Assembly: GCA_018333525.1 (NCBI GenBank)
Contig: JAGXTF010000104.1
Span: 1 to 54,147, forward strand
Source of the DNA: Bacteroidota bacterium
GTDB lineage: Bacteria > Bacteroidota > Bacteroidia > NS11-12g > UBA955
DNA length: 54,147 nt
Direction: 5' to 3'
Shown: positions 16,976 to 26,428 of the stretch, one piece after another
Layout: each line of letters begins with the position of its first letter
Position numbering within the stretch: position 1 is the first letter of the stretch
The notes under the pieces: model-generated
Databases searched by the model: none
Told to the model about the DNA's origin: nothing
The model's input: only the letters and a program-made list of their open reading frames with translations
Made by a program: the position numbers and the translations under genes

Positions 16976-17044
16976 TTTTGCGTTTTTTTGGTATGGTTTT
17001 TATACCACAATAAGTAACCTTTGATAAACGTTAATCCTTATTTC

Positions 17045-20000
17045 ATGCGCATTCTGAAAAAACTTCTTCTGATAGGGCTGTTGTTATGTCCCCTTTTTGC
17101 CAAAGCGCAAATCAAAAGTTTTAGTACAGATCCGCTTTTGTTTATTGATGAATTTGAGAAATTCATCCAAACAGCAGAGGAGAAAAAATTGAATGAGGAT
17201 GTAAAATTATTTGCAGAAAATTGGAAACTCGGTAAATTTTCTCCGCTTCAGCAAAAGAGCATTATCAAAATATGCAACGATATGTTGTTGGAGCAGATGA
17301 ATGTGCAACCCTATTTCGGTCTGATGATTAATTCTCTGGCTACATTATTGGAAAAGAAATTACCGGATAAAATTTTACAACAATGGCAAAAAGTTACGGA
17401 ATCCCTGATTGGGCAGGGAAATGCAGAATATCTGGATTTCCTGAAAATAACTGCCAGGCTGTTTGCAGAAAATATTGTTTTTGAAGATGACAATAAAAAA
17501 TGGTTTGCAGATAATTCTGATTATGATATTCTGTATGAACGCGGAAAAATCATAATTAAATTTAAAACGTTAAACCTCACCTGCCAGGGTCCTCTGGATA
17601 GAATGGTGGTGTACAATACCGGAGGTTTTTATGTCCCTTCGGAAAAAATGTGGTACGGTGTAAGCGGAAAATGCAATTTCGACAGGGTAATGCCAGAGGA
17701 AAAAGTGGAAGTGGAATTCGGAAAATACCGCATACCATTAAACGAATCCAACTTTACAATAGACTCTGCGAATCTCATTTTTTCAAAGTACTTTACAGGG
17801 GAAAAGGTTATTGGAAAATTCAGCGAAAGAATGTCGTATGCGAACGACAGTTTGTCTATTCGAAAAACCGGATTTCCAAAATTCGCATCTTATGCAAATA
17901 CGCTGCAGATCAAAGGGATTGTAGGTCCCAATGCGAGTTTTAGAGGTGGACTTACCATCAACGGAAAAGAAATAAATACCCAAACTGCCAATGGCGAAAA
18001 ATCGCTTATCAGTATTTATTATAAAGGAAAAGTTAAAGCTACATTAGAGGCGGCAGCATTTAAAATTGAGGATGGTGTGGCAGCCAGTCCGGGGGCCAAT
18101 GTTACCATCATATTGGATAGCGCAAATATTTACCATCCCAATGCAATTGTAAATTTTATTTTTAAAGAAAATAAATTAGTAGTAAACCGCGGAGAAAAAG
18201 GATTACAAAGGGTGCCATTTACCTCGGATTATCACAAAGTAGATATTGATGTGCAACAGGTTCGTTGGAAAATAGATGAACCCTTTATTGATTTTGATAA
18301 CATCAATAATGATTTGGAAGCGAAAATTGCGTCGGGTGATTTCTTTAAAGAAATGATTTATGCACGCATGCAGGGCGCATTGTCTTTTAACCCGCTGGAA
18401 GCGGTAATGCGTTATTATGCCAAATACATGCGTGGTACTAAAACTACCAAATTTGCAGTAGCGGATTTCGCACAATTTTTAAAAACGCAACCACAATACC
18501 TCACTTCTTCTTTTATTGATATGCACGATGCCGGTTTTGTAACCTATTTTGAAAAAGAAGACAGCGTTAAAATAAAACCAAAATTATTCAATTACGTAAT
18601 AGCACATGAAGGGCATAGAGATTATGATGTAATACGACTTTCGTCCCTGATATCCAAGAGACCCAATGCTTCTTTGAATTTGCTGAGCAATGAACTGGTA
18701 GTAGAAGGCGTATTGAAGTTCTTTTTCTCGGATAGCCAGAATGTAATTGCATTGCCTTACGATCAAAAAGTAATTTTAAGAAAGAACAGGCGCATTGTAT
18801 TTGGAGGTATGGTACGTGCCGGCCGGTTTGATTTTTTTGGAAAACAATTTGAATTTGATTACGCTAATTTTCAGATTTATAATCCAAATATCGATTCCAT
18901 GAAAATGTATTTCCCGGATTCAACGGGATACAAGGTAATTCCAATTAAAACAGTTTTGCGGAATATTGATGGGACTATTTTTATTGATAAACCAAATAAC
19001 AAATCGGGAGTTGTAAGTTATCCGGAATATCCAATATTTAAATCGGGAAAAGGTTCAGAAGTATTGTACGATAACCCGAAGATCCACGGCGGAGCTTATA
19101 AGGCGGACAAATTTAAATTCGTGGTAGATCCATTTACCATTGACAGTTTGGATAATTTTACCATAGCAGGGTTGCAATTTGGTGGAACATTTATCAGCGA
19201 TGGAATTTTTCCGGAATTCCGACATTATGTTTACATTCAACCCGATTATTCTTTAGGATTTATTAAAGCAACTCCTCCCGGCGGATTCCCGATGTATCGC
19301 GGAAAAGGACAGGGAGAAATGATCATGGCTTTGAGTAATGATGGTTTTTATGGATTGAAAGGAGACATTGGTTATAATGGAAGCAGTACCAAATTTGACA
19401 AGATTTTATTGTTGCCGGATAAGGCAGTGGGGCAAATTTCCAGTTACGATCTTGCAATCAATTCAAAATACCCTCAGGTACATGCCAGCGATGCAAATTT
19501 GGAATGGAAACCCTACGAAGATAAATTGACTATTGCCCAGGGTGAAACACCAATTAAAGTGTTTAAAATGGGCTATGATTTTTATGGAAGTATTACACAA
19601 ACCCCTGCCAAATTAATTGGAAATGGAACGCTTGCCTGGGATCAGGCGAGATTCAATTCCAATGATATGACCCTTGGGCCTAACAAGGCAACAGCAGAAA
19701 AAGCTTCCCTAAGAATTTATGCTGCAGATTCCACCAAAATTGCTTTTGAAACCAATGATATAAAAGGTAATATGGATTTCGATAAACGATTGGGGACCTT
19801 TACCACCAATCAGAAAGATGCCACGACCAATTTCCCGTTCAATAGTTTTACCACCAACCTGAACGATTACAAATGGAATATGGATCAGAAAACCATTGAA
19901 GCGAATGTGGGTGCAAATCTGGCGGGAACCACTCCCTATTTTATGAGTACCAATCCTTTGCAGGATAGTCTGAAATTTGAAGCGAAACATTCCATTTATG

Positions 20001-21427
20001 ATCTGAATAATTATACTTTAAAAATTGAACAAATTCCATACATCGATATCGCAGATTCCAGAATTTTTCTCAAAGATGGAAGCATCACTGTGCGTGAAGC
20101 CGGGGATATTGATATTGTGGAAGGAGCAAAAATTGCGGCAAACAGAACCGATAAATTCCACGAAATTTATAATACCAGAGCAAAAATATATGGTCGTTTG
20201 AAAATGCGCGGAAGCGGAAAATACCAGTATGTGAGCAACCTTGGCGTGCGCCAGGAATTTACTTTGGACAGCATTATTGTGAATGCAGATAAACATGTGG
20301 AAGGGGTTGGAAAAATTAATGAGGAGCAGAATTTTACATTAGAAACCAAAATTGGTTACAAGGGATTTGCGCAGGTTTTAAGTACAGAGAAAAATATTCT
20401 TTTTACCGGTTATGTAAAACCATTACATACATTTAAAAACATAATTCCATCAGCATGGATTCGATATAACGATCGACTGGATCCGAAAAATGTGGTGATC
20501 AATATGATGGATCCGCGGGACAAAGACAACAAAAAACAGTATGTGGGATTGTTTATTGCCAATGATTCCAGCCACGTTTATCCGTTGATGTATAGCTGGA
20601 AACGCAGGTACAGCGACCCGGATGTTACCAATGATACCGGTATTTTATATTACGACAACGAAAAGCAAAGCTTTTTTGCAGGAAGTAAAGCGAAATTAAT
20701 CGACGGCTCATTAAAGGGAAGTTACTTGCAGGTAAATGAAGGCAACCATTCCATACATGCAGAAGGTCCTTTGGATTTTGGTATGGAAACCAACCACATT
20801 CATTTTAAAAATGCGGGAACAGCAGACCTGCTTCCTGGCGATTCCTCCTTTCAATTTAATATGGCTATGATGCTGGACTTTCCGCTGCATAAAGATGTTG
20901 CAGAGAAAATAAAAGCAAAAGCTGCAGCGAGCAGTGGGGCATCGGTAGATATCAATACCGAATTTTTTGAAAAGGCTTTGGGTGAAATGATCAGCGATGA
21001 TAAAAATGCGCGCAAGGCCATGGACGAAGTGATTAAAACAGGTAAATTAAGTGGTAAGGATGAAGTGGATTATAAACTGGTGATGAGCGATGCCATTTTC
21101 CGCTGGGACAGCAAACGCCGTGGAATGTATTGCCATGATGCAGTAACCCTTGTGAATTTTGCGGGAACATCTGTAAATAAAACAGTAGATGCAACCATTT
21201 TACTGGAGCACAAACGCAGTGGCGAAAACATGTATATTTATCTGGAATTTGGAACCAACGACTGGATTTATATCAACCTGCAAAAGAATGTTTCTTACAT
21301 GCTCAGCAGCGATCCCCTACTCAACGAAACCATGATCAACACAGCCGACAAACTCGGTCTAGACGATTTCTATAGCCGTATGGCAACACAGCGCCAGGTG
21401 GACAGGTTTTTGGCGAAGTTTGATTGA
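17045..21427 (+). CDS. Very large exported protein of unknown function
   Basis: I do not recognise this 1460-residue protein. A clear signal peptide (MRILKKLLLIGLLLCPLFAK, then AQ) starts at the ATG at 17045. An earlier in-frame ATG at 17021 adds eight residues before it and is less likely. The first 150 residues look alpha-helical. The rest alternates short beta segments with polar turns (GGxF, DSxK, GNGTLAW), as in long beta-solenoid or AsmA/TamB-like proteins, with no cysteine-rich or catalytic motif that stands out and no T9SS tail. It ends in a soluble segment (TQRQVDRFLAKFD). A periplasmic or outer-membrane role is likely. It is about four times longer than the average gene here. Confidence 0.85.
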   Translation: MRILKKLLLIGLLLCPLFAKAQIKSFSTDPLLFIDEFEKFIQTAEEKKLNEDVKLFAENWKLGKFSPLQQKSIIKICNDMLLEQMNVQPYFGLMINSLATLLEKKLPDKILQQWQKVTESLIGQGNAEYLDFLKITARLFAENIVFEDDNKKWFADNSDYDILYERGKIIIKFKTLNLTCQGPLDRMVVYNTGGFYVPSEKMWYGVSGKCNFDRVMPEEKVEVEFGKYRIPLNESNFTIDSANLIFSKYFTGEKVIGKFSERMSYANDSLSIRKTGFPKFASYANTLQIKGIVGPNASFRGGLTINGKEINTQTANGEKSLISIYYKGKVKATLEAAAFKIEDGVAASPGANVTIILDSANIYHPNAIVNFIFKENKLVVNRGEKGLQRVPFTSDYHKVDIDVQQVRWKIDEPFIDFDNINNDLEAKIASGDFFKEMIYARMQGALSFNPLEAVMRYYAKYMRGTKTTKFAVADFAQFLKTQPQYLTSSFIDMHDAGFVTYFEKEDSVKIKPKLFNYVIAHEGHRDYDVIRLSSLISKRPNASLNLLSNELVVEGVLKFFFSDSQNVIALPYDQKVILRKNRRIVFGGMVRAGRFDFFGKQFEFDYANFQIYNPNIDSMKMYFPDSTGYKVIPIKTVLRNIDGTIFIDKPNNKSGVVSYPEYPIFKSGKGSEVLYDNPKIHGGAYKADKFKFVVDPFTIDSLDNFTIAGLQFGGTFISDGIFPEFRHYVYIQPDYSLGFIKATPPGGFPMYRGKGQGEMIMALSNDGFYGLKGDIGYNGSSTKFDKILLLPDKAVGQISSYDLAINSKYPQVHASDANLEWKPYEDKLTIAQGETPIKVFKMGYDFYGSITQTPAKLIGNGTLAWDQARFNSNDMTLGPNKATAEKASLRIYAADSTKIAFETNDIKGNMDFDKRLGTFTTNQKDATTNFPFNSFTTNLNDYKWNMDQKTIEANVGANLAGTTPYFMSTNPLQDSLKFEAKHSIYDLNNYTLKIEQIPYIDIADSRIFLKDGSITVREAGDIDIVEGAKIAANRTDKFHEIYNTRAKIYGRLKMRGSGKYQYVSNLGVRQEFTLDSIIVNADKHVEGVGKINEEQNFTLETKIGYKGFAQVLSTEKNILFTGYVKPLHTFKNIIPSAWIRYNDRLDPKNVVINMMDPRDKDNKKQYVGLFIANDSSHVYPLMYSWKRRYSDPDVTNDTGILYYDNEKQSFFAGSKAKLIDGSLKGSYLQVNEGNHSIHAEGPLDFGMETNHIHFKNAGTADLLPGDSSFQFNMAMMLDFPLHKDVAEKIKAKAAASSGASVDINTEFFEKALGEMISDDKNARKAMDEVIKTGKLSGKDEVDYKLVMSDAIFRWDSKRRGMYCHDAVTLVNFAGTSVNKTVDATILLEHKRSGENMYIYLEFGTNDWIYINLQKNVSYMLSSDPLLNETMINTADKLGLDDFYSRMATQRQVDRFLAKFD

Positions 21428-21716: not shown

Positions 21717-23984
21717 TTACCAAAGCGACCAGAATTCCACTCGGATGTAACGAACAAATCTCCTGAATACAATCGAAAGAATGGAGTGTTTTTCACAATG
21801 AATCTTCGCATTTCCTGTCATCAAAGGTTTTAAACTTAAGCCCGGATTTGGAATATAGGATCTTACAATTAAATAATGATCATTTTGCCATTCATTTAAC
21901 TTTTCAACCACTGGAGATATGGAATACACTTTGCCGGTAAATGTTTGGCCTGGAAAGGCTCTGGCTTTTAATGTAATTTTTTGACCCTGTTTGATATCCC
22001 CGATTTCTTTTTCCGGAATTTGTATTTCTGCCATTAAATAATTTATCTGGTTTATTTCAAGCAACAGGTCACCTTTTTTTACATTTTCGCCAATTTTTTC
22101 ATTGGTTTTTTTTGTAATTACTGTTCCATTTATGGGACAAACCAATGTTAATTCGGAGATTTTCTTTTCGAGATATTTTTTCTGAGTGGTAAGCCGTCTG
22201 ATATCAGCTTGCAACCACTGAATTTCTTCAGGTCTGTTACCGGTAAGCAAAAGGTTCAGTCGTTCTTTCATTTCCCTGAATTCACTTTCACTTTTGCTTC
22301 GGTCTTCCAGAGATTGTTCATATTCCTTAGGTGAGATAACCTGATTCGTTAGTAGAAATTTGCTCCTTTGTTCGTTTATATTCGCGAAGTAAGCCTGATC
22401 TTTAGCCTTGGTTACCATAATCCTGGCGAGTTCGATTTCTTCATTGCGCGGCCCGGATTTAGATAAATGCAATTTGGCGTTTGCTGCTTCAATTTCAGCA
22501 TTTATTTTATTTAATTCCAGTCTGTAATCAGAATCAACCAATTTGGCTATCATGGAATTTTTCTTTACACTTTCACCTTCTTTCACATAAATACTGTCAA
22601 TTATTCCTTCCGCCGGGGCATGTATTTTTGCAATTTGAACGGGGATGATAGTAAAGGAACCGGAAATCCGCAGTTCTTTTTTTATTACTGACATCAAAAG
22701 AAGAATAGTTGTAATTATCATGATAATTTTAAACTTTCCCCTTTTAAAAAATGTTTTGATTTGCATATTTTGAATGTATGTTTTTAGTGAGACTAAATGG
22801 TTTTTTAATGGATATCTGAAGTAGATAATCAGACATGTCATAAAAATAATGAAACCCCAGGCCTGGAATCTGGTAACCATAAAACCTCCAAACCAGGTTG
22901 CGGTTTTGTAGAGTAGCGTGTAACTATAAATTGCCGATAGGAATGCGTATGAAATTAATAAGTTCCTATTTTTTCTGTCGGGTTTGAGCAATGCGGTTGC
23001 GGATTTGGACCATATAGATCGAACACTGTTATTCAGATAATGGAATGCTTTTTTTCTAAGGTTTGGAATATTTAGCCAATCGCTCAGCAAATAGTACCCG
23101 TCTAATTTAATAAGTGGGTTAAGATTGAAGAAAGACTTAATGGCGGATGTACATGTGATGATTAAAGCAAAATAATGAATGTTCGTGCCGGGTTCTGTTA
23201 AACGCCATATTAGTGTTGCTATGGCCCATATAAATACTTCAAAATATGCACCGGCAAATGTTACCCAGAGCCTTTTGTGTTTTTCCGGAAATAACCACGC
23301 ATCGCTGACATTACAATAAAAAGCAGGTTGAAAATAAATCAGAAGAAAACCGATTTCCTTGACTTTTCCGCCAAAATAACTGCAAGTCATTCCATGTGCG
23401 AATTCATGAAGCGTAACAACAACCAGAATTACCAGCCAGGCGGTAAGGATAGTGCCCCAATGAAAAGTATTTTTAAAGTCTGTGATAATTTCACGCCAAT
23501 GCCCAAATGTTACTAAAGTGGCAATTAGTAAAAGTGATATGGAAAATAAAATAAACCCAGCTGTAAAAAATATGCGGGTTCTTGGAAGCAACCACCGGAA
23601 CAGATTTTCAGGGTTGAATAATTTAAATCTGAGATATAGAATATCTCCCTTTATTATTTTTTTTCTGGGATGTGTTTTAGACCCAGGGTCAGAATTTTCT
23701 AAAAGACTGGTTCGGAGCAGGCCGTCCAAAAAATCTTTCAATTCGGATTCACTGATTGTGATGTCAAATTGGGAATGAATTAACTCTATAATGGACACAT
23801 GGGAATTACTTCCATCTAATTGCGAAATAATATAAAATTCAATCTCCTGAAAACGGAAATATCTCTCATTTAGAGGATCTTTGATTACATAGGATGTGTT
23901 TTCCCCGGAATTATCAATTTGTTTACTGATGATAATATCCTGCCTGATTCTGGGAAATATTTGTACTTCTGATTCGTTGGCCAT
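21717..23984 (-). CDS. PqqD-like / M50 metalloprotease / HlyD adaptor fusion, candidate peptide processor-exporter
   Basis: Three modules are joined in 755 residues. Residues 1 to about 105 resemble a PqqD-like winged-helix domain (IISQLDGSNSHVSIIELI), the fold used as a leader-recognition element in peptide biosynthesis. Residues about 115-400 are a multi-pass site-2-protease-type membrane core with the zinc site HEFAH (193-197) and the third ligand in NPLIKLDGYYLL (289-300). A transmembrane segment near 418-434 leads into an HlyD/MFP periplasmic adaptor (barrel-sandwich IHAPAEGIIDSIYVKEG 454-470, coiled coil to about 640, then LMAEIQIPEKE). The gene is last in line after four small peptide genes on the same strand, separated by a hairpin. 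No ABC transporter or outer-membrane channel is nearby. Processing and export of those peptides is inferred, not shown. Confidence 0.82.
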   Translation of the reverse strand: MANESEVQIFPRIRQDIIISKQIDNSGENTSYVIKDPLNERYFRFQEIEFYIISQLDGSNSHVSIIELIHSQFDITISESELKDFLDGLLRTSLLENSDPGSKTHPRKKIIKGDILYLRFKLFNPENLFRWLLPRTRIFFTAGFILFSISLLLIATLVTFGHWREIITDFKNTFHWGTILTAWLVILVVVTLHEFAHGMTCSYFGGKVKEIGFLLIYFQPAFYCNVSDAWLFPEKHKRLWVTFAGAYFEVFIWAIATLIWRLTEPGTNIHYFALIITCTSAIKSFFNLNPLIKLDGYYLLSDWLNIPNLRKKAFHYLNNSVRSIWSKSATALLKPDRKNRNLLISYAFLSAIYSYTLLYKTATWFGGFMVTRFQAWGFIIFMTCLIIYFRYPLKNHLVSLKTYIQNMQIKTFFKRGKFKIIMIITTILLLMSVIKKELRISGSFTIIPVQIAKIHAPAEGIIDSIYVKEGESVKKNSMIAKLVDSDYRLELNKINAEIEAANAKLHLSKSGPRNEEIELARIMVTKAKDQAYFANINEQRSKFLLTNQVISPKEYEQSLEDRSKSESEFREMKERLNLLLTGNRPEEIQWLQADIRRLTTQKKYLEKKISELTLVCPINGTVITKKTNEKIGENVKKGDLLLEINQINYLMAEIQIPEKEIGDIKQGQKITLKARAFPGQTFTGKVYSISPVVEKLNEWQNDHYLIVRSYIPNPGLSLKPLMTGNAKIHCEKHSILSIVFRRFVRYIRVEFWSLW

Positions 23985-24000
23985 CTTTCAAATCATAATG

Positions 24001-24033
24001 AAAGCCCACTCAACATTATGTTGAATGGGCTTT
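24001..24033. terminator. Hairpin between the peptide genes and the exporter gene (possible attenuator)
   Basis: AAAGCCCACTCAACAT and ATGTTGAATGGGCTTT pair over about 15 bases with one mismatch (a G-U pair in the minus-strand RNA). It lies 16 bases before the exporter ATG. The minus-strand transcript then reads UUUCAUUAUG, a weak U-tract, so it could act as a partial terminator or mRNA-processing site that sets peptide expression above exporter expression. Confidence 0.55.
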
Positions 24034-24065
24034 GACACTTGTTACATCAATCTTATTGGAATTGA

Positions 24066-24290
24066 TCATTTTTTAGGCTGGTCACCAGGCTGATTGGTGT
24101 TGTTTTCACCCGGATTATTATTGCCGGGATTACCGCCACCACCAGATCCATCACCAGGTTGATTGCCCTCCAGATTGGTATTGTTTTCACCAGGATTGTT
24201 GTTGTCAGAATTATCGCCGGTTAAACCGCTGGGAGCAATACGAGCTTCAAGTTCCTCAAGATTCAAGAGATATTTTGCTCTATTTTTCAT
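24066..24290 (-). CDS. Small Asn/Gly/Pro-rich peptide with LEELEARIAPS motif (peptide A)
   Basis: The 74-residue peptide begins with a short basic stretch (MKNRAKYLL), then the motif NLEELEARIAPS (10-21). A tail of about 50 residues follows, made almost only of Asn, Gly, Pro, Glu, Asp, Thr and Gln. The tail contains the segment NNNPGENNTN twice and NQPGD twice, so it grew by internal duplication. It has no cysteine and no classic Sec signal or double-glycine site. Together with three neighbouring small genes it shares only the motif region. This fits precursor peptides with a conserved recognition leader and variable cargo. It is 34 bases after peptide B and 81 bases before the exporter gene. 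Confidence 0.75.
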   Translation of the reverse strand: MKNRAKYLLNLEELEARIAPSGLTGDNSDNNNPGENNTNLEGNQPGDGSGGGGNPGNNNPGENNTNQPGDQPKK

Positions 24291-24324
24291 AAAATTTTAA
24301 AATTATTTATAGAAATACCAACAT

Positions 24325-24555
24325 TTATTTGTCGTCGCCAAGTCCAGGATTGCCCCCGGCTTGTCCACCTCCGCCAGTGTCATTTCCTCCATTTTGATCT
24401 CCACTGCCGGAATTCCCTGGACCTCCGCCCCAGTTTCCCTGTCCAGGAGGGCCGTCATGTGGATCATTGATGCCACCTGTGTCTGGTGCAATTCTCTCTT
24501 CAAGTACTTCGAAAGAAAGAGAAATTTTTGGTGCAAAAATTGAATTTTTCATCAT
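24325..24555 (-). CDS. Small Gly/Asp/Asn-rich peptide with LEERIAPD motif (peptide B)
   Basis: The 76-residue peptide has the motif as FEVLEERIAPD (15-25) after a longer N-terminus (MMKNSIFAPKISLS). The tail is glycine-rich (GGGPGNSGSG, DTGGGGQAGG) and ends in DDK. It is cysteine-free. Its ATG directly follows the stop of peptide C (TAA ATG ATG), so the pair is translationally coupled; the second ATG at 24552 is an alternative start. The motif replaces Ser with Asp at the last position. Function is unknown; the role is inferred from the shared motif and the adjacent M50-HlyD gene. Confidence 0.75.
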   Translation of the reverse strand: MMKNSIFAPKISLSFEVLEERIAPDTGGINDPHDGPPGQGNWGGGPGNSGSGDQNGGNDTGGGGQAGGNPGLGDDK

Positions 24556-24759
24556 TTATTTGGGTTGTGGTGAACTTCCATTAGAAACTTCGTTGCCTGG
24601 GTTTCCGTTGCTTTCTCCATTTGAACCACCGCCACCACCTCCGGAGGGTTCAGGTGATGATCCATTTGAAACTTCATTGCCGGAGTTACCATTGTCTGAT
24701 GGGCCCCAACCGCTTGGTGCAATCCTTGCTTCAAGCTCTTCTAAATTTAATTTTTTCAT
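24556..24759 (-). CDS. Small Gly/Ser/Asn-rich peptide with LEELEARIAPS motif (peptide C)
   Basis: The 67-residue peptide has the shortest leader, MKKLNLEELEARIAPS (1-16), and a tail in which NEVSNGSSPxP occurs twice around a GGGGGG run. It is cysteine-free and acidic overall. It heads the cluster C-B-A-exporter. An 18-bp motif at 24880-24897 lies 120 bases upstream and recurs at a similar distance before peptide D. The motif residues are identical to those of peptide A (NLEELEARIAPSG), while the tails have almost no shared sequence beyond composition. Confidence 0.75.
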   Translation of the reverse strand: MKKLNLEELEARIAPSGWGPSDNGNSGNEVSNGSSPEPSGGGGGGSNGESNGNPGNEVSNGSSPQPK

Positions 24760-24879
24760 GATTTTTTTAATTTTGAAATTAAATTGTTTAATGAATGACT
24801 TTAGCTTCCAGTCGGACCTTGAAAGGGCCTATGAAGGTTACTTTAAGTCTTTTTTTGGGTCTTGATTAATTGAAACAAA

Positions 24880-24897
24880 ATAAGTTGCCCATAGTTA
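24880..24897 (-). promoter_or_regulatory. 18-bp motif shared upstream of peptide C and peptide D
   Basis: Read on the minus strand the sequence is TAACTATGGGCAACTTAT. It matches TAACTATAGTCCACGTAT (25287-25304) at 14 of 18 positions. It lies 120 bases from its gene start, the other 107 bases. It is a candidate promoter or operator, perhaps read by the adjacent ECF sigma factor. Confidence 0.45.
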
Positions 24898-24987
24898 TTT
24901 GACGCAACCTGTTTTCAAGTATTTCACCGACCTATTTGTTTTCATTTCCATTCTTTAATTAACAAAGATTATTATTTGTCTTATTCT

Positions 24988-25179
24988 TTATTTTCCACCG
25001 GAATTTTCAGGATTGGCAGTTCCCTCGGGGTTTGCGCTTCCGGAAGGGTTGTGGTCACTGGAACTCTGATTACCAGGTTGTCCATCATAACCTCCGGTTC
25101 CGGTTACGCTGGGAGCGACGCGTTCCTCCAGTTCTTCTAAAAGGAGAGAAGCCGGAGAATGTTTGATTTCATTTTTCAT
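24988..25179 (-). CDS. Small Gly/Ser/Pro/Asn-rich peptide with LEELEERVAPS motif (peptide D)
   Basis: A 63-residue peptide with MKNEIKHSPASLL, then LEELEERVAPS (14-24), then a hydrophilic tail (DGQPGNQSSSD, ANPEGTANPENSGGK) with the near-repeat ANPEGT/ANPENS. It has no cysteine. It lies 228 bases upstream of peptide C and has its own copy of the shared 18-bp upstream motif, so it is a separate transcription unit or the first gene of a longer one. It is the most divergent in the motif (Val for Ile). Confidence 0.72.
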   Translation of the reverse strand: MKNEIKHSPASLLLEELEERVAPSVTGTGGYDGQPGNQSSSDHNPSGSANPEGTANPENSGGK

Positions 25180-25774
25180 TGTTTTTTTATTTATTTAATT
25201 ACCTGTACAGCCTTGAATATAACGGACTATTTCGGAACTTTTAAGTGTGTTTTTAATTACTTTATTTCCTCAAGCCGGCCTTATTTATACGTGGACTATA
25301 GTTAGGTTTTTTTTAAGATTTGCTTTACAGTTCTTTTTTGTTAAACTATTTATTTAAGTGGAAAGTAAAAAAACACAAATTATTTAACCGGTTGTTTTGA
25401 TCAAGTTAAGAAATACCTCATCCATTCTAAATCAAAAAATTCAGACAAAATAGTTTTTAATATTTCTATTGAAATTTTACCAACTATTAAAATAGATATT
25501 TACCAGTTTTCCATTCAATATTAATTTTCCTTCCAATCTAATAAGAATATTATCTTAAAAAGTCCATCATATTTTACTTAGAAATTAAAAAATATATGTA
25601 AAGAACAGAAATACAATAACATACGGGATCATTGAAGGTTGGATTTTAGTAGCCTGGTGTATAATCCGATATTTTATCCTTTGAAAAACCTGTTAGTTTA
25701 GTGAATTATTATTCAAATAAATCTGAATAAAAGTATAAAAGATTAAGTATGCGTTTAAAATTATTTTCCTCATA
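25180..25774. other. AT-rich intergenic region between the sigma factor and peptide D
   Basis: The stretch of about 595 bases contains no credible frame on either strand. Its main feature is the 18-bp motif at 25287-25304 in front of peptide D. The rest is strongly AT-rich and looks like regulatory or spacer DNA. Confidence 0.5.
25287..25304 (-). promoter_or_regulatory. Second copy of the 18-bp motif, upstream of peptide D
   Basis: On the minus strand it reads TAACTATAGTCCACGTAT, 107 bases before the peptide D start. It pairs with the copy at 24880-24897 in sequence, strand and distance to the gene. Confidence 0.45.
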
Positions 25775-26428
25775 TCAGGACTCTTGAGGGGCCCGATAAT
25801 TCATGTGTACGCGGAGAGCAAGTTTAGCCTTCGATATCAGATTATAAGCGCTCTTGAGACTAATATTCATGATGGTAGAAATTTCTTCAGGAGTTAAATT
25901 GAAATAAAACTTGAGTATAATAATTTTCTTTTGCCTATCGGAAAGCTTGTTGATGTTTTTCAGTATTTGAATTGCATTATGGTTGAATTCCTGCACATAA
26001 ATGAAGGTTTCCTCAACCGATGGTAGAGTCTGGTGCAAGTAACTTTCTGGCAGTGAATAAGATTGTAATTTAGTTAGAGTTCTTATCAGCCGTCTTCGGA
26101 GGCAGGTCTTTAGATATGCAGAAATGTTATTCGTTGTTCCAAGATGATCGCGGTGATTCCAGAGTTCAATAAATAAATCATGTGTTTCATCCTCTATAAG
26201 ACAATAATCGTTGGTGATGGTACTGCCGTACGCTAGTAATTTGGATGAATATTTCTCATAAATAGCCTGAAGCGCACTTTCATCGCCATTTCTAAAGGAT
26301 TGCCATAACTCATATTCATAATTTGGCGACTCCGCTTCAGCAAACTTTTGCTGAAGCTCAGTCATAGAGCCCATATTTGATGGTGATATCGGATTTTGAT
26401 CTTTATTCCGTTTTGTTGCCATAAACAA
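25775..26428 (-). CDS. ECF-type (sigma-70 family) RNA polymerase sigma factor
   Basis: The protein of 217 residues has a sigma-2 region (AIYEKYSSKLLAYGSTITND, then EDETHDLFIELWNHRD) and a sigma-4 helix-turn-helix (LSDRQKKIIILKFYFNLTPE, then EISTIMNISLKSAYNLISKA), with a 25-35 residue extension before sigma-2. No anti-sigma (FecR-like) gene is next to it, unlike many Bacteroidota ECF genes. It is upstream of and on the same strand as the peptide cluster, so it is a candidate regulator of it. In-frame ATGs at 26428 and 26422 are both possible starts. Confidence 0.88.
   Translation of the reverse strand: MFMATKRNKDQNPISPSNMGSMTELQQKFAEAESPNYEYELWQSFRNGDESALQAIYEKYSSKLLAYGSTITNDYCLIEDETHDLFIELWNHRDHLGTTNNISAYLKTCLRRRLIRTLTKLQSYSLPESYLHQTLPSVEETFIYVQEFNHNAIQILKNINKLSDRQKKIIILKFYFNLTPEEISTIMNISLKSAYNLISKAKLALRVHMNYRAPQES

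Follow-up and report, generated by a model that had tools for sequence, protein, structure and literature searches.

A stretch of 54,147 nucleotides from Bacteroidota bacterium (assembly GCA_018333525.1, contig JAGXTF010000104.1; hereafter the window) harbors four small genes and a large one which, in our opinion, probably constitute a leader-tagged system for maturation and export of micropeptides. The small genes encode peptides W1 to W4 that share the block LExLE[EA]R[IV]AP; the large one encodes a fusion of a PqqD-like RRE domain, an M50 protease and an HlyD adaptor in a single chain. We hypothesize that the PqqD/RRE domain recognizes and binds the LExLExR[IV]AP block, by analogy with the RRE of TbiB1 and its leader. 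The next step would be cleavage of the precursor by the M50 domain, in or at the membrane and probably at Ala-Pro or directly behind it, if the daptide peptidase MpaP is a valid analogy. Finally, the HlyD domain would hand the hydrophilic tail over to a TolC-type channel encoded elsewhere. The presumed outcome is release of short unmodified peptides, about 6-8 residues long in most Zixibacteria and 40-54 in the window, where the tails might be trimmed further at internal repeats. The whole machine would be a small relative of an exporter for giant proteins with LEPR-type N-terminal motifs.

In its strict form, [LF]ExLE[EA]R[IV]AP, the motif is present exactly in W1-W4 among all window open reading frames (ORFs) of at least 20 residues; the chance expectation across these ORFs is 2e-6. 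Rewritten as a degenerate DNA pattern, it has four matches in the 3.7-Mb genome, all at this locus (none for the reversed-pattern control), and none in 394 other genomes of the window's phylum. Chance origin of the motif is rejected on these three grounds. The shared block was the core of the original prediction, made from the DNA letters alone, and it is confirmed, with F as the first residue in W2. As also claimed there, the peptides are 63-76 residues long and contain zero Cys in all four cases. No Pfam or NCBIfam family model describes them, and none of the four matches NF012209 (LEPR-XLL) at E up to 1.

The presence of PqqD-like domain, M50 HEFAH site and HlyD adaptor on one chain, likewise predicted, is upheld by NF041824, Pfam and a structural match to TbiB1. 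The RRE/PqqD domain comprises residues about 9-99 of the 755-residue fusion. Residues 11-98 of its AlphaFold model resemble the leader-bound lasso-peptide RRE TbiB1 (Z 10.8, root-mean-square deviation 2.4 over 82 residues), and PqqD and TbiB1 are matched by the N-terminus also in a profile search (E about 0.004). The RRE-M50 half matches NF041824 over residues 26-395 with E=2.3e-61 and 208 bits, the cut-off being 300. The M50 part, a helical region in the predicted model, contains HEFAH at 193-197 and NPLIKLDG at 289-296; the HExxH and NPxxxxDG motifs are invariant or nearly so among 20 aligned fusions, distant ones included. Residues 183-214 also show weak sequence similarity to mjS2P (3b4r; E=4.6e-4). 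The C-terminal part (HlyD, residues about 430-748; Pfam HlyD E=1e-22) is an adaptor of MacA/EmrA/HlyD type according to both sequence and structure matches. Because the model reaches pLDDT 84 and pTM 0.54, the arrangement of domains should not be read from it. A structure search with the whole model hit mostly the HlyD half, and the lack of an M50 structure among the matches listed is not evidence of absence. TolC-type OEP genes are present elsewhere in the window's genome; the scanned surroundings of the locus (13.8-34.4 kb of the window) encode no dedicated ABC transporter.

The motif and the fusion are genetically coupled, whichever of the two is taken as the starting point. Firstly, one pattern scan for the motif in a genome collection of 84,980 species resulted in 78 loci (these and other loci are numbered with the prefix L). 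Small motif ORFs adjoin the fusion in Zixibacteria (L078, L081, L101), Eisenbacteria (L115), Gemmatimonadota (L085, L121) and Planctomycetes (L092, L130, L140). In an Armatimonadetes genome, two motif genes in tandem occupy one contig and a variant lies on another, 4.5 kb from the fusion, so that small motif genes stand beside fusions in five phyla other than that of the window. Of 21 genomes that encode large or small proteins with the motif at the N-terminus, 20 also contain a PqqD-M50 region, as opposed to 3 of 24 control genomes, where the motif is internal or antisense (Fisher p=1e-8, ignoring phylogeny). The ORFs were sorted by eye; when four ambiguous control ORFs are moved to the N-terminal group, p=6e-7 is obtained. 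The exception is the genome of L085, whose fusion runs off the contig end. Viral contigs, used as negative control, gave 18 motif matches, none near a fusion, and one distant fusion.

Secondly, the fusion leads to the motif. The window's class and order offer no close relatives for comparison, since the fusion is missing from all 394 and all 107 other genomes, respectively (E up to 1e-40). A pattern scan of genome contigs based on the window fusion alone revealed zero relatives, its patterns having been drawn from stretches that are not conserved. All three further close fusions from Eisenbacteria (45-48% identity) are directly preceded by a motif gene that encodes MRHLxLE[LM]E[KV]LEQRIAP and a Gly/Ser/Lys-rich tail; two distant Eisenbacteria fusions have no motif gene directly before them. 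In the sole close relative from Gemmatimonadota (77%), the fusion is preceded by a motif gene at a distance of 84 bp. Among Zixibacteria, the fusion is present in 100 of 132 genomes. Of 90 loci, 53 contain a motif micro-ORF downstream of the fusion and on its strand, and in none of the 90 is one found upstream or on the opposite strand; when fusions with 40% identity or more and sufficient flanking sequence are considered, 43 of 46 have the downstream micro-ORF. Independent occurrence of motif and fusion across genomes was named as a potential refutation in the original prediction; we consider their link real.

Most Zixibacteria products are 21-30 residues long, as in MKDYKLTVEVLEARIAPAFSQGGQ or MYELKIEQLEARISPSRWGTD. 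Shine-Dalgarno GGAGG precedes 56 of 61 micro-ORF starts, mismatches in close micro-ORF pairs amount to 0.12/0.08/0.48 at codon positions 1/2/3, and the micro-ORFs are under codon-level purifying selection. Tandem copies number up to five in L145 and L167, and some of them are accompanied by a terminator-like hairpin of their own; the fusion-nearest of four tandem copies in L145 has AGGAGGTTTTGAG before its ATG and such a hairpin after its stop. One can imagine that the micropeptides are not exported at all and stay in the membrane or cell, where they would regulate or inhibit the fusion as pseudo-substrates; the strictly conserved leader, the short tails and 1:1 gene pairing in most Zixibacteria would agree with this. 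The tandem copies with separate hairpins, however, suggest that the tail is the product, and so does conservation of W1, W3 and W4 tails across phyla. We find this explanation very improbable.

The tails were originally described as unrelated, and this description does not hold. An Eisenbacteria locus (L115/L144) encodes four peptides (E1-E4), as many as the window, and the tails of W1, W3 and W4 are conserved there one to one, in E1, E3 and E4, respectively. All three matches exceed every one of 2,000 composition-preserving shuffles (p=0.0005 each), and no other W-E pairing reaches p<0.04. Common stretches include GTGGYDGQPGNQS..HNPSGSANPE and GNPGNEVSNGSxPQP, while W2 and E2 have only the leader and DT in common. 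The DNA of W and E genes differs mostly at third codon positions. The small genes, whose conservation was another point offered for refutation, thus have Eisenbacteria counterparts in three cases, and such cross-phylum conservation argues that the tail is the product under selection. Tails of W1 and W3 contain internal repeats. The tag is followed by 40-54 residues in the window peptides and by about 6-8 in most Zixibacteria. Because the window tails are hydrophilic (85-93% G/N/S/P/Q/D/E/T), we judged the possibility that they are bacteriocins less likely.

Distant relatives of the fusion place the tag in a broader context. Among plasmids, tblastn detected homologous fusions in Alphaproteobacteria and Enterobacteriaceae, their identity being roughly 20-24%. 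They adjoin giant proteins annotated LEPR-XLL in Thalassospira and Pseudosulfitobacter and other giant proteins in Methylosinus and E. coli; the loci also hold adaptors of HlyD and RND type and, as a rule, TolC. The N-termini of the giants read VEPIEPRILLSAD, MEALEPRFLLSAD, FDTLEPRVLLNAD and ALESRQLFDGA, the first two being confirmed by NF012209, which is matched by the giants of L034 and L036. Similar giant-protein operons with the fusion exist in distant relatives inside the window's phylum. In a tree of 50 rows, based on the PqqD-M50 half, the window fusion clusters with sequences from Eisenbacteria, Gemmatimonadota and Planctomycetes in a group of 11 (support 98/94). Nine members have an adjacent motif gene by automatic label, and L266 carries one too. 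Rows associated with giant proteins split off with 100/98 support, and the motif-gene label changes 7 times on the tree versus 15.4 times in shuffles. Since distant fusion relatives adjoin giants, several of them LEPR-type, the micropeptide motif is probably a small form of the LEPR-type N-terminal export tag. The likeness to LEPR-type motifs noticed at the outset exceeds resemblance, because homologous fusions adjoin giants with LEPR or LEPR-like N-termini.

A gene annotated as 'prepilin peptidase' in Pseudosulfitobacter and Methylosinus encodes a SecA-like protein. Genes with this annotation in LEPR-type operons (L010:12966-14990, L011:12171-14087) specify SecA-like proteins of about 640-675 residues (NCBIfam E about 1e-175), and similar genes, recognized by eye only, follow the fusion in several giant-protein operons of the window's phylum (L038-L043, L045). 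They suggest a dedicated SecA-like motor in giant-protein operons.

Another explanation is that the block is an uncut tag for export or surface sorting, that the small proteins are displayed whole, like miniature LEPR-type proteins, as structural or matrix parts and that the M50 domain has another substrate. Like tags indeed head giant proteins beside homologous fusions, and tails in Planctomycetes and some Eisenbacteria are long, structural-looking SK/H/G repeats. An uncut Zixibacteria product would, however, be nearly all leader because mostly 6-8 residues follow its tag, and the M50 catalytic motifs are kept invariant or nearly so. We consider retention of the tag unlikely.

Several known systems resemble the proposed one in part. 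In daptide biosynthesis, the leader of a short ribosomal peptide is taken off by MpaP, described as an intramembrane peptidase that depends on an RRE (PMC10036551). Its model, NF041824 (daptide_HExxH), and the window fusion have in common an RRE (PqqD-like) and an M50 domain with HExxH and NPxxxxDG motifs, but the fusion stays below the threshold (208 vs 300), adds HlyD, lacks accompanying Mpa modifying enzymes and is linked to unrelated precursors. This closeness of the RRE-M50 half to a daptide leader peptidase may be taken as a sign of a new class of ribosomally synthesized and post-translationally modified peptides (RiPPs), with the modifying enzyme encoded elsewhere or unrecognised and the fusion acting as leader peptidase and exporter. 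Three close Eisenbacteria fusions are, in addition, followed by a gene for 345-372 residues without assigned function and by a FemAB-family gene (L161:2938-5117, L162:4731-6799, L163:1250-3399), whose product might possibly carry out tRNA-dependent addition to the peptide. On the other hand, no RiPP-modifying enzyme is encoded in the window neighbourhood and none was seen in the Zixibacteria clusters examined; the window tails are devoid of Cys and the tails have no common modifiable motif. A RiPP class of this kind seems improbable to us. The initial statement that no modifying enzyme is near is valid for the window and needs reservation for the relatives with FemAB.

In LEPR-XLL systems (NF012209), a homologous PqqD-M50-HlyD protein adjoins substrates tagged at the N-terminus with [LIM]Exx[EL]EPR[IVF]LL-like motifs, in a neighbourhood of M50-HlyD, further HlyD adaptors, an RND adaptor, TolC and sometimes a SecA-like protein. 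Unlike the window peptides, these substrates are thousands of residues long, and their fusions form the separate group of the tree (100/98). In streptococci, the M50 protease Eep matures SHP/ComS pheromones (PMC7564271). There, too, an M50 protease acts on a very short exported peptide, which is used as a signal and exported by PptAB; unlike the window system, it is Gram-positive, with hydrophobic peptides, a separate ABC exporter, RRNPP receptors and no RRE. Epipeptide loci include the M50 protein YydH/LiaK (NF058609), to which the fusion shows a weak match (E=8e-12, 45 bits against a cut-off of 225). The hallmark of epipeptide systems, a radical SAM enzyme, is absent at the window. With type I secretion the window has in common an adaptor of HlyD/MFP fold and, elsewhere in its genome, an OEP-type channel, but not an adjacent ABC transporter. 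The literature searched, which comprised neither subscription papers nor preprints, contained no paper combining PqqD, M50 and HlyD and mentioned LEPR-XLL only incidentally, in two papers. Because it cannot be assigned by defining features to any of the known systems considered, we judge the system new relative to this literature: a tag, micropeptides and a single-chain recognition-protease-adaptor appear to form an undescribed system built of known domains.

In Zixibacteria, the micropeptide gene and a gene for an STK-TPR protein (about 990 residues) are usually convergent. Both are present in 25 loci, the peptide only in 3, the kinase only in 3 and neither in 31 (Fisher p=6e-11, ignoring phylogeny). 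In the clusters examined, a GAF-histidine kinase gene comes after STK-TPR, joined by a sigma-54 response regulator in at least one. The STK-TPR and GAF-histidine kinase pair beside the micropeptide is conserved (L283, L284, L285, L287, L206-L263) and represents a candidate sensing module. BTAD-type regulators are located at L115 and L085, and the window contains a gene for an extracytoplasmic function (ECF) sigma factor. Such neighbours fit a signalling role by proximity only. Control by the ECF sigma factor, as first proposed, is not supported, the relatives having other neighbours. A promoter common to the sigma and peptide genes was sought by eye only and not found, from which no conclusion is drawn.

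All parts of the locus are arranged as originally described, on the minus strand (Table 1). The sigma gene starts with TTG and has an in-frame ATG two codons further in. Because its gap to W4 is AT-rich and a hairpin lies between W1 and the fusion, the sigma gene and the four peptide genes are not clearly one operon. The hairpin could possibly be an attenuator yielding more peptide than fusion; pattern matching finds 5 terminator-like hairpins in the region versus 3.9 expected. On the opposite strand, the fusion is adjoined by a gene for a 1468-residue protein without Pfam family match (window 17021-21427).

Table 1. Features of the candidate micropeptide locus (window coordinates)
Feature	Position	Strand	Remarks
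ECF-type sigma-70 factor gene	25775..26428	minus	595 bp upstream of W4
Candidate precursor peptide W4, 63 aa	24988..25179	minus	leader LEELEERVAP; tail GTGGYDGQPGNQS..HNPSGSANPE common to E4
Candidate precursor peptide W3, 67 aa	24556..24759	minus	leader LEELEARIAP; tail with 2x GN[SP]GNEVSNGSSP[EQ]P; orthologue E3
Candidate precursor peptide W2, 76 aa	24325..24555	minus	leader FEVLEERIAP; Gly/Asn-rich tail; only LEERIAPDT common with E2
Candidate precursor peptide W1, 74 aa	24066..24290	minus	leader LEELEARIAP; tail with 2x NNPGENNTN; Eisenbacteria orthologue E1
Terminator-like hairpin, 15 bp	24001..24033	minus	between W1 and fusion; pattern match only
PqqD/RRE-M50 site-2 protease-HlyD fusion, 755 aa	21717..23984	minus	domain matches and predicted structure

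Other types of genes occur near the fusions. Gemmatimonadota (L085:3225-3876, L203, L267, L273, L274) possess a motif gene in which ATGK(D/N)..A(V/I)EL or a similar sequence precedes the motif; it is located within about 3 kb of GAF-HlyD or fusion genes. In two Planctomycetes (L148:11150-11773, L149:3997-4476), a conserved small gene (SRCxRxxGEAFxCxKxxYVFDxDMAR...) is situated between an SK-repeat motif protein and the fusion, which is adjoined by a TolC-type gene.

Some observations weigh against tagged maturation and export as proposed here. The tails differ strongly among lineages (NPGN-type, SKG/H-rich, xxSxGGQ), so a single tail function is not implied. Beyond AP, the peptides contain no conserved cleavage site. 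A recognisable micropeptide adjoins only 10 of 40 Zixibacteria fusions below 40% identity. Finally, the window fusion is adjoined by neither an ABC transporter gene nor a SecA-like gene; the latter is present in some of its giant-protein relatives. What endures of the earlier interpretation, a fusion that recognizes, cleaves and exports tagged peptides under control of a sigma factor, is the tie of motif and fusion, the RRE, the intact M50 site, the adaptor and the link to LEPR; unrelated tails and ECF control are not supported.

As for the biological role, we favour the tail as a secreted signal, which is plausible. Going further, and only tentatively, we suggest that Zixibacteria possess an ancestral or near-universal diderm cell-cell signalling. 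Genes of about 24 codons would encode the signals (AFSQGGQ, IGWSID, SRWGTD), a single RRE-protease-adaptor would mature and export them, and convergent kinase, TPR and histidine-kinase genes would serve to read them. A scaled-up tag and machine would export giant surface proteins.

If our assumptions are true, the micropeptides represent a class of secreted peptides of 21-30 codons that is likely missed by gene callers. They would be served by a dedicated one-protein device for recognition, cutting and export, conserved across six phyla and, in one of them, in most genomes. A candidate role, recognition by an RRE domain, would be at hand for the N-terminal tags of LEPR type on giant bacterial proteins. 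And if the tails do act as signals, diderm bacteria, where few systems of peptide communication are known, would gain another one.

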